A stretch of DNA of 64,000 nucleotides from Amnibacterium kyonggiense (GTDB lineage: Bacteria > Actinomycetota > Actinomycetes > Actinomycetales > Microbacteriaceae): positions 248,001-312,000 of the forward strand of contig NZ_SOAM01000003.1 of assembly GCF_004364555.1 (NCBI RefSeq), given 5' to 3'. The notes under the pieces were generated by a model, which made no database searches, was not told the origin of the DNA, and saw only the letters and a program-made list of their open reading frames with translations. A program made the translations under genes and the position numbers. Shown piece after piece: positions 34,444 to 61,658 of this stretch (position 1 is the first letter of the stretch; every line of letters starts with the position of its first letter).

Positions 34444-34495
34444 CTGTTCACGGATACGGAGATCCGGCGAGCCGGATCTCCGTATCCGTGAACAG
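34444..34495. repeat. Palindromic repeat family A, copy 1
   Basis: A 52-base perfect palindrome with a two-base centre; half-site TGTTCACGGATACGGAGATC. It begins three bases after the kup stop, with the convergent YcaQ-like gene ending at 34508, so it can act as a shared terminator. Other copies at 56164 and 58242 have the same arms but a 15-base centre. Confidence 0.85.
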
Positions 34496-56163: not shown

Positions 56164-56230
56164 GCGGGGTTCACGGATACGGAGATCCGCGGCGCGAAGC
56201 GTCCCGGATCTCCGTATCCGTGAACCCCGC
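56164..56230. repeat. Palindromic repeat family A, copy 2
   Basis: 67 bases: perfectly complementary 26-base arms, the core TTCACGGATACGGAGATCCG, around a 15-base centre containing GCGCGAAGCG. Lies between metY and metX on the same strand, where it may attenuate, terminate or stabilise the transcript. Confidence 0.85.
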
Positions 56231-56312: not shown

Positions 56313-57518
56313 ATGGACTGGCAGACCTCGGAGGACACCGTCGCGGCGCGGCCCGTGACGGACGCCGACGCGCGGGCGCTCGTCGGGAAGCCGCCGGCGA
56401 GCGGCGCCTGGCGGGAGGGCGACCCGGTCGCGGACCGGTCGTTCGTCACGGGCGGGACGCTGACGACGGAGGCCGGCGCGCGCATCCCCGGGGTGCGCGT
56501 CGCCTACGAGTCCTGGGGCGAGCTCGACGCGGGCCGGAGCAACGCGGTCCTCGTCCTCCACGCGCTCACCGGTGACCCGCACCTCGTCGGATCGGCCGGC
56601 CCGGGCCAGCCGACGGACGGCTGGTGGGAGGGCGTGGTCGGCCCGGGACTCGCCCTCGACACCGACCGCTGGTTCGTCGTCGCACCGAACGTCCTCGGCG
56701 GCTGCGCCGGGACGACCGGACCCGCGTCGCTCGGGCCGGACCAGTCGGAGTGGGGCGGCCGCTTCCCGTACCTCACGATCCGCGACCAGGTCGCCGCGCA
56801 GCTCGCCTTCGCGGACGCGCTCGGGATCGACCGCTTCGCCGCGGTCGTCGGCGGGTCGATGGGCGGCATGCACGCGCTGGAATGGGCCGTGACCGCCCCG
56901 GATCGCGTCGGCGCCCTCGCGGTGCTCGCGGCGCCGGCCGCATCGAGCGCCGACCAGATCGCGCTGAACTCCGTCCAGACGGAGGCCGTCCGTGCCGACC
57001 CGCGCTTCCGCGGCGGCGACTACTACGGCGCCGTGGACGGCGACGGCCCCCACCGCGGCCTCGCGCTCGCCCGACGGATGGCGCTCCTCAACTACCGCAG
57101 CGGCTCCGAGCTGAACGACCGCTTCGGCCGGTCGTGGCAGTCCGGGGTCTCCCCGCTCGGCCACCACGGCCGCTTCGCCGTCGAGTCGTACCTCGACTTC
57201 CACGGCAACCGGTTCACGCGGCGGTTCGACGCGAACAGCTACATCCGGCTCGTGGACGCGATGAGCTCGCACGACGTCGGCCGCGACCGCGGCGGCGTCG
57301 AGGCGGCGCTCGCGACCTACGCAGGGCCCGCGCTCGTGCTCGGCATCGACTCGGACCGGCTCTACCCGGTCGCCGACCAGCGCCGCGTCGCCCGCGGCCT
57401 GCGGGGCGCGCTCGACGGACCCGAGCCCACGCTGCTCGAGTCGCCGTTCGGCCACGACGGCTTCCTGATCGAGCGCGAGGCGGTCGGCGCCGCGCTCCGG
57501 CGCCTGCTCGCGACCTGA
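56313..57518 (+). CDS. metX: Homoserine O-acetyltransferase
   Basis: 401 residues, alpha/beta fold. Nucleophile Ser182 in GGSMGGMHALEWA, oxyanion region LHALTGDPH, NVLGGCAGTTGP, and Asp/His of the triad in GIDSDRLYP and FGHDGFL. It acetylates homoserine with acetyl-CoA; the product is used by MetY. Upstream, metY is separated by 155 bases that hold palindrome A2; no obvious -10 box lies close to ATG 56313, so cotranscription with metY is possible. Confidence 0.95.
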   Translation: MDWQTSEDTVAARPVTDADARALVGKPPASGAWREGDPVADRSFVTGGTLTTEAGARIPGVRVAYESWGELDAGRSNAVLVLHALTGDPHLVGSAGPGQPTDGWWEGVVGPGLALDTDRWFVVAPNVLGGCAGTTGPASLGPDQSEWGGRFPYLTIRDQVAAQLAFADALGIDRFAAVVGGSMGGMHALEWAVTAPDRVGALAVLAAPAASSADQIALNSVQTEAVRADPRFRGGDYYGAVDGDGPHRGLALARRMALLNYRSGSELNDRFGRSWQSGVSPLGHHGRFAVESYLDFHGNRFTRRFDANSYIRLVDAMSSHDVGRDRGGVEAALATYAGPALVLGIDSDRLYPVADQRRVARGLRGALDGPEPTLLESPFGHDGFLIEREAVGAALRRLLAT

Positions 57519-57571: not shown

Positions 57572-58240
57572 ATGACGACAGCGGGTGCGGAGACGCGCCG
57601 TCGGCGGATCCGCGTCGCCCTGGTCGACGACCACCTCCTGCTCGTCGAGGGACTGGCCGCGCGGCTCTCGGCGCCGCGGGCGCGGATCGAGGTCGTCGCC
57701 GCGCTCACCGACTGGCAGCCGCTGCTCGACCACCCGGACTTCCCGGTCGACGTGGTCGTCGTCGAGTTCGGGCTCGAGGACGACGTGCCGTTCGAGACGA
57801 AGGTGCAGCAGCTCGGCGACCGGGGCATCGCCGCGGTCGCGCTCGCGCGCACGCGGGACGCCGCGACCGTCCACGCCGCGCTCACCGCCGGCGCCCTCAC
57901 CCTCGTGCCGAAGAGCGATCCCGCCGAGCACCTCGTCGCCGCCGTGCACGCCGCCGCCGACGGGCGGGCGCACCACTCGCCGTCGGTGCAGGAGGCGCTC
58001 GACGCGTGGGCGAACCGGGCCGACCCGACCCTCGGCCGGCAGGAGCTGACGGCCCTCCAGCTCTACGCGCAGGGCCGCAGCGTGCACGAGGTCGCCCTGC
58101 ACATGGCGACCACGGACCAGACCGCGAAGAGCTACATCAAGCGCGGGCGCCGCAAGTACCGCGCCGCCGGCGTCGACCTCGGCACGAAGCTGCTGCTGCG
58201 CCGCCACGCGATCCGCGAGGGCTGGATCCCGCCCGAGTGA
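57572..58240 (+). CDS. NarL/LuxR-type regulator with Glu in place of the phosphoacceptor Asp
   Basis: 222 residues: receiver (about 12-130) and LuxR-type HTH (about 150-220). Acidic pocket Asp19-Asp20 and switch Lys114 (VPKS) are kept, but the phosphoacceptor position reads VVVVEFGLED with Glu65, where the paralogue at 61005 has Asp59. A Glu there often mimics the phosphorylated state, so constitutive or phosphate-independent activity is likely. GGGAGG precedes ATG 57572. HTH contains TAKSYIKRGRRKYRAAG, close to the paralogue. Confidence 0.88.
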   Translation: MTTAGAETRRRRIRVALVDDHLLLVEGLAARLSAPRARIEVVAALTDWQPLLDHPDFPVDVVVVEFGLEDDVPFETKVQQLGDRGIAAVALARTRDAATVHAALTAGALTLVPKSDPAEHLVAAVHAAADGRAHHSPSVQEALDAWANRADPTLGRQELTALQLYAQGRSVHEVALHMATTDQTAKSYIKRGRRKYRAAGVDLGTKLLLRRHAIREGWIPPE

Positions 58241-58241
58241 C

Positions 58242-58298
58242 GTTCACCGATACGGAGATGCGCAGCGCGAAGCGGCCCGCATCTCCGTATCCGTGAAC
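58242..58298. repeat. Palindromic repeat family A, copy 3
   Basis: 57 bases: 21-base arms around the 15-base centre CAGCGCGAAGCGGCC. One arm pair is mismatched (C opposite C) but at another pair C-G is replaced by G-C (GATGCG against CGCATC), a compensatory change relative to copies 1 and 2. It begins at the base after the stop of the Glu-receiver regulator. Confidence 0.85.
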
Positions 58299-58451
58299 TC
58301 CGCACGACGGGTGATACCACTTCCACAGTTCCCAGGCGCGTCAAAACCTTCAACCGGTGTGGCAACCTTGCGCGCCGAATCCCCCGTGATTCCATGACCC
58401 GGCGCTCGCCCAGGACTCCTGCCGGGCGCCGGACACACGGCACGGGAAGTC

Positions 58452-59648
58452 ATGGAACGGATCCTCAAACAGCGCGATCGCCTGCTCGGCATCAGCGCGC
58501 GCCTGGTCGGGCTGGTCGGCACGGGCGCCTCGCTCGTGCTCCTGGCACTCTGCGATCCGCGGCCCGGTCTCCTGCTGCTCGTCGCTCCCGGCTACGCCGT
58601 GCTCGTCTTCGCCCTCGTCCGCATCGGCGCGACCCGCGCGATGCTCTGGCCCGCGCTCGCGGTCGGCGCCGGGCTCGTCAGCGCCGTGCTGGTCCGCTTC
58701 GGCACCGTCGGCGCGTTCGACGGCCTCATCGGCCAACCGGCGCCGTTCCCGGTCCCGACCGGCTCGGTCGACGCCGTGCGGCTGCTGCTCGCCGTCTCGA
58801 TCGCCGCCGTCTCCATCGTGCTCACGATCAGCCTCGGCCGGATGATCGTGCTCGTCGGGGCGTTCGGCGTCACCCTGATCACCACGATCGTGCTGTTCGC
58901 CGGGGACGCCGCGCTCGGCGTCGTCGGCGCCTCGGTGCTCGCATCCTGGTTCGGGCTCACCGTCTCCGGGTCGGTGCTCTCCGCCGCGCTGCTCCGCGCC
59001 GCCCGTCGCGTCTCCTCCATCGGCCGCGCGCACCGGAGCGAGCGGCAGGCGAGCGAGACCGAGGCGCAGCGCCGCCAGGGCGCGCGACTGCTCCACGACA
59101 CCGTGCTCGCCACCCTCACGTTGCTCGCCCACTCCGGGGTCGGCGTGAGCCGGGAGGCGCTGCGCCGCCAGGCGGGCGACGACGCACGCCTCCTGCGCCA
59201 GCTCCGCCTCTCCCCCACCCCGATCTCGATGAGCGGCACCAGCGACGGCGCGAAGACCGACGCCGACGGACTGAAGAGCGACAGCCTGCAGGCCGTCCGC
59301 GCCCGCTTCGAGCGCCTCGGCCTCGACGTCAGCTGGCACGGCGCCGGCACCGTCTCCCTGCGCCCGGACCGGCTCGACGCGTTCCTGCTCGCGCTCTCCG
59401 AGTGCCTCGAGAACGTCCGCCGCCACTCCGGCGTCGAGGAGGCCCACGTCACCATCACGGACGACGAGGCCAGCGTGCGCGCGCTCGTGACGGACAACGG
59501 CGTGGGCTTCGAGCCCGCGGCGGTCCCGGCGGGCAAACTCGGCTACCGCGAGTCCATCGTCGGCCGCATCGAGGAGGCCGGCGGCACCGCCCGGGTCTTC
59601 TCGGCGCAGGGCTCCGGCACCACCGTCGTCCTGGAGATGCCCCGATGA
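58452..59648 (+). CDS. Membrane sensor histidine kinase (HisKA_3-like)
   Basis: 398 residues. About six transmembrane helices (10-185), no obvious extracellular sensor domain, then a DHp region with phosphorylated His215 in ARLLHDTVLATL and a GHKL ATPase: N-box Asn321 in SECLENVRRHSG, G1 motif DNGVGF (Asp348-Phe353), and G2-like GSGTTVVLEMP at the end. The HDTV H-box is typical of NarX/DesK-like kinases. GGAAG precedes ATG 58452. ATGA overlap with the next gene and a regulator downstream define a three-gene operon. Confidence 0.88.
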   Translation: MERILKQRDRLLGISARLVGLVGTGASLVLLALCDPRPGLLLLVAPGYAVLVFALVRIGATRAMLWPALAVGAGLVSAVLVRFGTVGAFDGLIGQPAPFPVPTGSVDAVRLLLAVSIAAVSIVLTISLGRMIVLVGAFGVTLITTIVLFAGDAALGVVGASVLASWFGLTVSGSVLSAALLRAARRVSSIGRAHRSERQASETEAQRRQGARLLHDTVLATLTLLAHSGVGVSREALRRQAGDDARLLRQLRLSPTPISMSGTSDGAKTDADGLKSDSLQAVRARFERLGLDVSWHGAGTVSLRPDRLDAFLLALSECLENVRRHSGVEEAHVTITDDEASVRALVTDNGVGFEPAAVPAGKLGYRESIVGRIEEAGGTARVFSAQGSGTTVVLEMPR

Positions 59649-60952
59649 CCGTCGCCCCGGAGCGGGACGCAGCGCCGCAGACGCCGCACCGCAAGGACCT
59701 GCGCCTGCAGGCCCTCGTCGACGAGCCCCACCGCCGTCTCCCCGCGCTCCGGTTCCCGCACCTGCACTCCGAGCGGCTGCGCTCGTCGCGCACGAGCCTC
59801 GGCACCGGCTTCATCGGCATCGCGGCGACCCTCGTCGCCGTCCTGCTCCTGTCGTTCGACCTCGCGCGCTTCGTCGAGGAGTGGCGCGACCAGACCTACG
59901 CGGAGCCCGGGCTCGCGGCGCTCTCCTGGCTCCTGCTCGCGGGGCTCCTCGTGGTGCTCGCCGTCGCGGCCCGCACCGCCGGCGACGTGCTCGACTCGCT
60001 CGTGAGCCTCGGGATCGTCGGCGGCCTCGGCATCGTCGTCGCGCTCGATGCGGCGGCGGTGTGGGGCAACGGCGACCTCGGGCACGACCTCACCGCGGCG
60101 CCGGCCGCCGGCTACGTGCTGCTCGCCATGGTCGGCGTGCGCTCGAGCCGCAGCATCACCGCGGCGTCCGGCCTGCTCGGCGCCGCCCTCGTCGCCCTGC
60201 TGGCCGTCAACGCGCTCGACGCGACGGTGCCGCCCTCCGGCCTCGTGGACGGAGCCGCGATGATCGCGAAGGCCGTCGCGCCGCCCATCGTCGCCGCGTG
60301 GATCGTGCACGTGTTCCGGAACATCGTCTCCGCGGAGCTCGAGCGGGTGCTCGTCGCCTCGACCACGAGCGCGCCCCGGTTCTCCGTCGGCATGATGGCG
60401 TCCGTCGAGCTGGCCCGCCTCGACCTCGCCGCCGAGCAGCTGATGGACGGGATCGCCTCCGGCCGCACGCGCCTGCCGCTGAACCCCGCGACGGCGCAGG
60501 CGGCCGCGGAGCTCGCGACGGAGCTGCGCCTCCACCTCATCGAGGGCCGCAGGCAGACCTGGCTGTACCACGCAATCAGCGAGTCGGAGCTGCTGGGCCG
60601 CGCGGTCACGCTGTCCGACCCCGAGTCCCTCGCCGGCCTGCTCGACCCGTCGCAGCGCGACGGCCTCCTCTCCGCGGTGTGGCTGATGCTCGGCGACGCC
60701 CCCGAGCGGTCGCGCCGCTCCGCGACGCGCGTCGCCATCGAGATCACCGTGGGACCCGCGCGCCCGATCGAGGGCAAGGCCCGGACGATGCACGTCCCGA
60801 TCGTCGTGCAGACCACCGGCGTGGCGCGCAGCCGGGTGGACCCGGCCACATGGGACGCTATGCGCAAGGTCGGGCGGCACGCCGATTCGCAGCGCGGCGG
60901 CAGCCTCTGGGTGGAGATCGACTGCGTGGTCGATCGTCCCGCCGAGCGCTGA
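59645..60952 (+). CDS. Kinase-like membrane protein (degenerate sensor-kinase partner)
   Basis: 435 residues. About five transmembrane helices (55-240) follow a basic cytoplasmic N-terminus; the cytoplasmic C-terminus (about 250-435) shows a long helical pair (residues 255-310) and then helix-strand order similar to a GHKL ATPase but without N, G1 or G2 motifs or a phospho-His. I infer a pseudo-kinase partner or allosteric regulator of the kinase before it. ATG overlaps the kinase stop (ATGA). Followed by the canonical regulator. Confidence 0.6.
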   Translation: MTVAPERDAAPQTPHRKDLRLQALVDEPHRRLPALRFPHLHSERLRSSRTSLGTGFIGIAATLVAVLLLSFDLARFVEEWRDQTYAEPGLAALSWLLLAGLLVVLAVAARTAGDVLDSLVSLGIVGGLGIVVALDAAAVWGNGDLGHDLTAAPAAGYVLLAMVGVRSSRSITAASGLLGAALVALLAVNALDATVPPSGLVDGAAMIAKAVAPPIVAAWIVHVFRNIVSAELERVLVASTTSAPRFSVGMMASVELARLDLAAEQLMDGIASGRTRLPLNPATAQAAAELATELRLHLIEGRRQTWLYHAISESELLGRAVTLSDPESLAGLLDPSQRDGLLSAVWLMLGDAPERSRRSATRVAIEITVGPARPIEGKARTMHVPIVVQTTGVARSRVDPATWDAMRKVGRHADSQRGGSLWVEIDCVVDRPAER

Positions 60953-61004: not shown

Positions 61005-61658
61005 GTGACCATTGACACCCGGACCATCCGCCTCGCGATGGTCGACGACCACCGGATGCTGCTGGGCGGCCTCACCGAGTGGATCCGCGGCTACGAGGAC
61101 ATCGAGCTCGTGGCGGCCGTCACGACCTTCACCGAGCTGCTGACGCACCCGAAGTTCCCGGTCGACGTCGTCCTCATGGACGTCGACCTCAAGGACAACT
61201 CGCCGGTGTCGCTGCGCCTCGCGCAGCTGAAGCAGACCGGCGTCGCGACGGTGCTCATGTCGAGCTACTCGGAGCCGCAGATCGTCCGCGAGGCGCTCGC
61301 CTCCGGCGCGCTCGGCTACGTGCCGAAGTCCGAGGACATCTCCATGATCGTCAAGGCGATCCGCGCCGCCGGCCGGGGCGAGTCCTACATCTCGGCCGAG
61401 CTCGACCTCGCGATCAACTCGGGCGACGTCGGCGGCTCCCCGAAGCTCTCCGCGCAGGAGCGCCGCGTCATGGCCCTCTACGGCGGCGGCGAGCCCGTGA
61501 AGACGGTCGCCTACGAGCTCGGCATCTCGGAGGAGACGGCGAAGTCGTACCTCAAGCGCATCCGCGAGAAGTACCGCGTCGCGGGCTTCGACGTGGGCAC
61601 CAAGGTCGCGCTGCGGAAGCGCGCGATCCAGGACGGCATCCTGCTGCAGACGGACTGA
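61005..61658 (+). CDS. NarL/LuxR-type response regulator
   Basis: 217 residues. Receiver with acidic pocket Asp14-Asp15, phosphoacceptor Asp59 in VVLMDVDLKD, switch residues near SSYSE, and Lys108 in VPKSE. The C-terminal LuxR HTH contains TAKSYLKRIREKYRVAG. It is a close paralogue of the regulator at 57572, which carries Glu at the Asp59 position. GGAG lies about nine bases before GTG 61005. A strong hairpin terminator follows. Confidence 0.92.
   Translation: MTIDTRTIRLAMVDDHRMLLGGLTEWIRGYEDIELVAAVTTFTELLTHPKFPVDVVLMDVDLKDNSPVSLRLAQLKQTGVATVLMSSYSEPQIVREALASGALGYVPKSEDISMIVKAIRAAGRGESYISAELDLAINSGDVGGSPKLSAQERRVMALYGGGEPVKTVAYELGISEETAKSYLKRIREKYRVAGFDVGTKVALRKRAIQDGILLQTD

Follow-up and report, generated by a model that had tools for sequence, protein, structure and literature searches.

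An atypical response regulator without its phosphoacceptor aspartate, encoded beside a conserved kinase/regulator pair in Amnibacterium

The locus and its two regulators

We analyzed a 64,000 nt stretch of the 3.7 Mb genome of Amnibacterium kyonggiense (contig NZ_SOAM01000003.1, positions 248,001 to 312,000; below, the window), where two paralogous response regulators, 40% identical, are encoded on the + strand on either side of a sensor histidine kinase. Gene A (57572..58240, 222 aa) encodes an atypical regulator of the NarL/LuxR type, made up of a pseudo-receiver and a helix-turn-helix (HTH) domain, and gene B (61005..61658, + strand, 217 aa) a canonical regulator that is the presumed partner of the kinase. 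Alignment confirms what a sequence-only reading of the window had claimed, that Glu65 of A (codon GAG, 57764..57766, + strand) stands opposite the phosphoacceptor aspartate of B. From a comparison of the locus across the family Microbacteriaceae we argue, with a rough probability of 0.55, that A is an accessory regulator that may act independently of phosphorylation at B's sites, either by pairing with B in a heterodimer or by competing with it.

Directly 5′ of A, across a gap of 53 bp, lies metX, a homoserine O-acetyltransferase-like gene (56313..57518, + strand), and A itself lies 211 bp before the kinase gene, HK (58452..59648, + strand). The H-box and ATP-binding motifs of HK are intact, and the protein is a distant relative of MacS, scoring 75.9 bits against the NCBIfam MacS equivalog, for which the cut-off is 300. 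Between HK and B there is always a gene for a membrane protein, MB (59645..60952, + strand), which is present in all complete family loci examined and has no Pfam match. The idea that MB is a degenerate kinase found no support: hhalign returned 15%, with the membrane segment alone aligned.

To place the locus in its family, A loci were collected by searching 300 and then 400 Microbacteriaceae genomes and fetching the neighborhoods, which gave 73 loci from 18 genera; a full-length query missed the most degenerate A genes, which were recovered with the HTH alone as query. The conserved order in these loci is metY-metX-A-HK-MB-B, usually followed by a convergent major facilitator superfamily gene. 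HK and B are both present in 69 of the 73, some of the remainder being contig ends, and metX-HK-MB-B is kept without A in 20 further loci. Because HK-MB-B occurs without A, HK would pair with B: judged from their universal co-occurrence, HK and B would form the core two-component pair, with A as an accessory. No A-type HTH was found in the 296 other genomes sampled from the order, among whose listed genera the A-bearing ones besides the window's own do not figure. A literature search found no paper on the metX-A-HK-MB-B locus.

The arrangement also bears on how A is expressed. A scan for promoters and terminators in the interval from metX to HK in the window detected nothing, and in the genus g80 the start of A overlaps the stop of metX by 4 bp (ATGA or GTGA) in all five loci examined. 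An overlap of stop and start codons is the usual sign of translational coupling. Given the 53-bp gap without a detectable terminator and the overlap in g80, A may be made with metX, and is probably expressed alongside it rather than with the kinase operon.

The sequence-only reading had also described a palindrome separating A from the kinase operon. The element is real (58242..58298, extragenic, not assigned to a strand, with 21-nt arms that are 95% complementary), but it lies outside the conserved locus: its arms have 62 matches in the window genome and none in five congeners. It is a species-specific repeat like the repetitive extragenic palindromes, which disposes of it as a conserved part of a regulatory switch. 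Copies of this TTCACsGATACGGAGATs... element in the window stand at 58242-58298, 56170-56224 and 34447-34492.

Loss of the phosphorylation pocket

Beside Glu65, the window's A retains Asp19, Asp20 and Lys114, as the sequence-only reading had stated. The residues that couple the pocket to the surface are lost: counting back from the conserved lysine, the Thr/Ser switch position is Ala92 (57845..57847, + strand; Ser in B), the next residue (T+1) is Arg93, and the K-3 position is Leu111 (57902..57904, + strand), where canonical receivers have Tyr or Phe and B has Tyr. Y-T coupling is therefore gone. The A receiver is so divergent that it falls under the Pfam gathering score for Response_reg (19.7 against 30.2 bits, E = 0.00096). 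It is recognizable as a receiver by homology, since profiles match VraR, DevR and NarL and the predicted fold matches receivers; specifically, the receiver fold is preserved at high confidence in the AlphaFold model, which has RcsB as its best PDB match and returns RcsB and NarL in Foldseek. With a receiver followed by a GerE-type HTH, A has the architecture of a NarL/LuxR-type regulator, although its own GerE and Sigma70_r4_2 matches are below cut-off, whereas those of B and of the HTH-only A proteins of g7 (described below) are above it.

The T+1 position suggests that trouble with phosphorylation may be older than the glutamate. Of 71 A receivers, 60 have Arg there, including most of the relatives that still carry the aspartate, 9 have Thr and 2 have Pro, against Thr, Ser or Ala in B. 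A small residue at T+1 leaves the phosphorylation site accessible, and in BldM a Val at this position may prevent phosphorylation (PMC12632262). By this rule A may have been poorly phosphorylatable even ahead of the loss of the aspartate.

Glu is found at the phosphoacceptor site in all seven Amnibacterium species, each of which has an A orthologue, while Asp is found in 61 of the 64 A proteins outside the genus that retain the site; in the related group containing Naasia and A. flavum the site is Asp and the switch position Ser. In the tree the Amnibacterium Glu sequences fall into a single clade on a long stem, with 100/100 support, so the glutamate is a substitution fixed in the genus, which most simply arose in one event. 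Asp in the related clades together with this single clade rules out Glu as the ancestral state. The sequence-only reading had named Asp in orthologues as a sign of a local error; related genera do carry Asp, but because Glu is fixed throughout Amnibacterium, both sequencing error and local polymorphism are excluded. Within the genus the switch Thr/Ser has been lost in six of the seven species, five having Ala and one Gly, the seventh still having Ser, and Asp20 has become Glu in two.

Amnibacterium is not the only lineage affected. Over all 73 A proteins the site is Asp in 61, Glu in 9 and Gly in 1, and in 2 there is no receiver at that place. The aspartate has been lost at least four times, twice to Glu, once to Gly, and once by deletion of the receiver in one genus (g7), and the pocket is damaged in about seven lineages. 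In the genus g72 the glutamate is accompanied by a change of the acidic pair from DD to SG and of the lysine to Arg; a common origin of this glutamate with that of Amnibacterium was rejected, since no bootstrap tree unites the two, although the exact placement of g72 is unsure because of long branches. Elsewhere (L117) Gly has replaced the aspartate, Arg the lysine and Glu the first acidic residue; L119 has lost both the second acidic residue and the Thr/Ser, and L108 and L111 the second acidic residue. In g7, A is reduced to an HTH protein of about 90 aa in one genome (G094) and to an HTH protein with a receiver remnant in another (G012), and the receiver-less gene still sits between metX and the kinase. 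By comparison, the five catalytic residues of B are invariant (D, D, D, S and K, together with the aromatic residue, in 89 of 89 proteins).

The DNA-binding half and a candidate operator

The recognition helix of A (58115..58165, + strand; the TDQTAKSYIKRGRRKYR region) has the contact residues K-S-x-x-K, as in B. It follows the pattern T-[VIA]-K-S-Y-[ILV]-K-R in all 73 A proteins, receiver-less copies included, while B has TAKSYLKR in 89 of 89. At the positions that correspond to the DNA-contact residues of NarL, A and B both have K, S and K; the six top-matching other regulators of the window genome that we compared have different contact residues. With the same contact residues in both, the two regulators are likely to recognize the same DNA. 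This supports the sequence-only reading, which had expected common binding sites from nearly identical HTH helices; the near-identity holds for the recognition helix (TAKSYIKR in the window's A), but not for the whole proteins.

The two halves of A also differ in how they evolve. Ratios of nonsynonymous to synonymous substitution (dN/dS; Nei-Gojobori, few pairs) for the receiver are 0.11-0.22 within the Glu clade and reach 0.25 in g72, compared with 0.01-0.06 for close Asp-bearing pairs; for the HTH the Glu clade gives 0.06-0.16 and the close Asp-bearing pairs 0.00-0.03. The HTH-only copies of g7 evolve faster, at 0.37. The receiver values are raised yet low, so constraint on the A receiver is relaxed but real, as under purifying selection.

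In the sequence 5′ of HK, motif discovery over 52 loci returned a palindrome, TGGCACCCCCAnTTnnGGTGCCA, with a log-likelihood ratio of 269 compared with about 80 for shuffled controls. A position weight matrix derived from 21 of those very sites and scanned over all 93 loci matches above the threshold of 11 bits in 36 of them, and 33 of the 36 matches sit 17-71 bp before HK in the same orientation. Such matches occur in genomes that carry A, in genomes whose A is receiver-less and in genomes that lack it. The exact core pattern stands before HK in 8 of 12 genomes searched whole, only one of which contains a second exact match. In many loci the element is followed, still 5′ of HK, by a conserved GTGTGACnATTGC-like stretch (e.g., at 4174 in L096 and 3792 in L131), and the two are probably the operator and promoter of the kinase operon. 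We infer that TGGCACCCCCAnTTnnGGTGCCA is a candidate operator for B and, through the shared helix, for A.

The window itself has no matrix match above 11 bits. At the equivalent position its lineage has a conserved block (58345..58376, + strand) with a TGGCAACC half-site at 58360, in which 24 nt around TGGCAACCTT are identical in four Amnibacterium species. Scanning the loci 5′ of A itself found no putative operator except one weak minus-strand match, in L101, and a pattern search for a wider regulon added no targets, as one-mismatch matches were not clearly commoner than in the reversed control.

Possible roles of A beside the core pair

We favor the reading in which A would be an old accessory paralogue next to the core HK/B pair. 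Its receiver, which has lost the phosphoacceptor aspartate in Amnibacterium and is predicted still to fold as a receiver, would serve as a protein-protein module; the HTH would bind the same sites as B, through an A-B heterodimer or by competition; and the amount of A, not phosphate, would set its effect. The receiver-less orthologues support indirectly that A would function independently of aspartate phosphorylation. Several observations weigh on the other side: all five catalytic residues are intact in 58 of the 73 A orthologues, and phosphorylation may be important elsewhere in the family; the seven Amnibacterium species all retain Glu65 and Lys114 together with Asp19 and an acidic residue at position 20, as a phosphomimetic would need; and the putative operator goes with B and HK rather than with A, and has an altered form in the lineage of the window.

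Those retained residues count in favor of a phosphomimetic, the likeliest alternative, in which Glu65 imitates aspartyl phosphate and locks A in an active, DNA-binding state as a constitutive copy of B. Glu is the commonest replacement in known receivers without the aspartate, at 26% (PMC4395418), and it arose twice independently among A proteins. However, the same paper notes that Asp-to-Glu changes alone often fail to activate, and that ChxR still binds DNA when its Glu is replaced by Asp or Ala (PMC4395418). With the Thr/Ser lost in six of seven species, and the K-3 aromatic also missing from the window's A, the usual path from the pocket to the surface is interrupted; T+1 is Arg even in most relatives with Asp, and sister lineages changed the aspartate to Gly or dropped the receiver and kept the HTH. 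Since the coupling residues are gone and these sister lineages exist, a phosphomimetic lock does not serve best as a general explanation, and we consider it unlikely, less so for Amnibacterium, where the acidic residues and Lys114 keep it in play. The sequence-only reading had proposed mimicry through the canonical switch, which these data do not support as the main reading; of its two outcomes, a protein always active or one responding only to binding partners, the second fits better.

It is less probable still that A is a superfluous paralogue in the course of being lost, which no longer has a function. Repeated receiver degeneration, the absence of A from many genera, raised dN/dS and the faster evolution of the HTH-only copies would all be expected of such a gene; nevertheless the reading frames are open throughout, dN/dS is well under 1 in both domains, the recognition helix is retained in every one of the 73 proteins, and seven Amnibacterium species keep a full-length A in place. 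We give the least credence to a kinase decoy, whose receiver would dock on HK, take no phosphate and so block or tune phosphotransfer to B, with DNA binding secondary. The intact predicted fold and the position of A next to HK in the loci examined suit this role, and competitors of this kind have been discussed (PMC12632262), but the receiver is the fast-evolving part of A and the HTH the conserved part, and g7 still keeps its receiver-less A.

An accessory role without phosphorylation would have precedents. In Streptomyces, WhiI and BldM are, like A and B, actinobacterial NarL/LuxR-type regulators, one partner having a degenerate phosphorylation pocket, and they form a heterodimer, with control through the choice and abundance of partners (PMC4125116). 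Unlike A and B they are orphans, whereas A stands beside an intact HK/B pair and its heterodimerization with B is a proposal; WhiI also lacks the lysine and one acidic residue and has no Glu at the aspartate site. In Enterobacteriaceae the auxiliary LuxR-HTH protein RcsA modulates the canonical NarL-type RcsB (PMC5829831, PMC4125116), which has auxiliary partners (PMC5829831) and is the closest structural match of A; A differs in having a recognizable receiver. A physical heterodimer of A with B at shared sites, as in these pairs, would be in keeping with the shared recognition helix and the gene linkage. ChxR of Chlamydia is an orphan of the OmpR type, unlike A. It does share with A a natural Glu at the phosphoacceptor position (PMC4395418). 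CmrT of the CmrRST system of Clostridioides difficile is, like A, phosphorylation-deficient and encoded beside a normal kinase/regulator pair, and models of phosphorylation-independent action have been proposed for it (PMC12632262); its output domain is OmpR-type and its three genes form one operon, while A is NarL-type and apparently belongs to the metX side.

The Asp-to-Glu change by itself is ordinary for a pseudo-receiver, and A belongs to an already known kind of regulator; the noteworthy and unusually useful part is the decay series next to an invariant kinase/regulator pair. Characterized atypical regulators are nearly all orphans (all but 2 of 20), and how pseudo-receivers are switched on and off has been called a mystery (PMC12632262). 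A contrasts with these mostly orphan cases in adjoining an intact pair: a whole genus has lost the phosphate-accepting residue of a gene switch while its DNA-binding half and the neighboring normal switch are intact, and A probably works without phosphorylation as partner or rival of B. Because the orthologues grade stepwise from intact to receiver-free forms and many genomes contain a candidate DNA site, the role of an unphosphorylatable receiver can be tested directly with natural variants. More tentatively, the family may form a natural stepwise loss of the phosphoswitch (first Asp with Arg at T+1, then Glu, then Glu in a ruined pocket and finally no receiver), bound throughout to a single kinase/regulator pair and a single DNA site. 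On this rather doubtful extension A might have been phosphorylation-independent from its origin, and its abundance might link expression of metX and the methionine operon to HK/B output.

A metagenome-assembled genome labeled Acidobacteria (L034, JABBOB010000014.1) contains the Amnibacterium locus, with 91% identity at the protein level; its label or bin is probably wrong.
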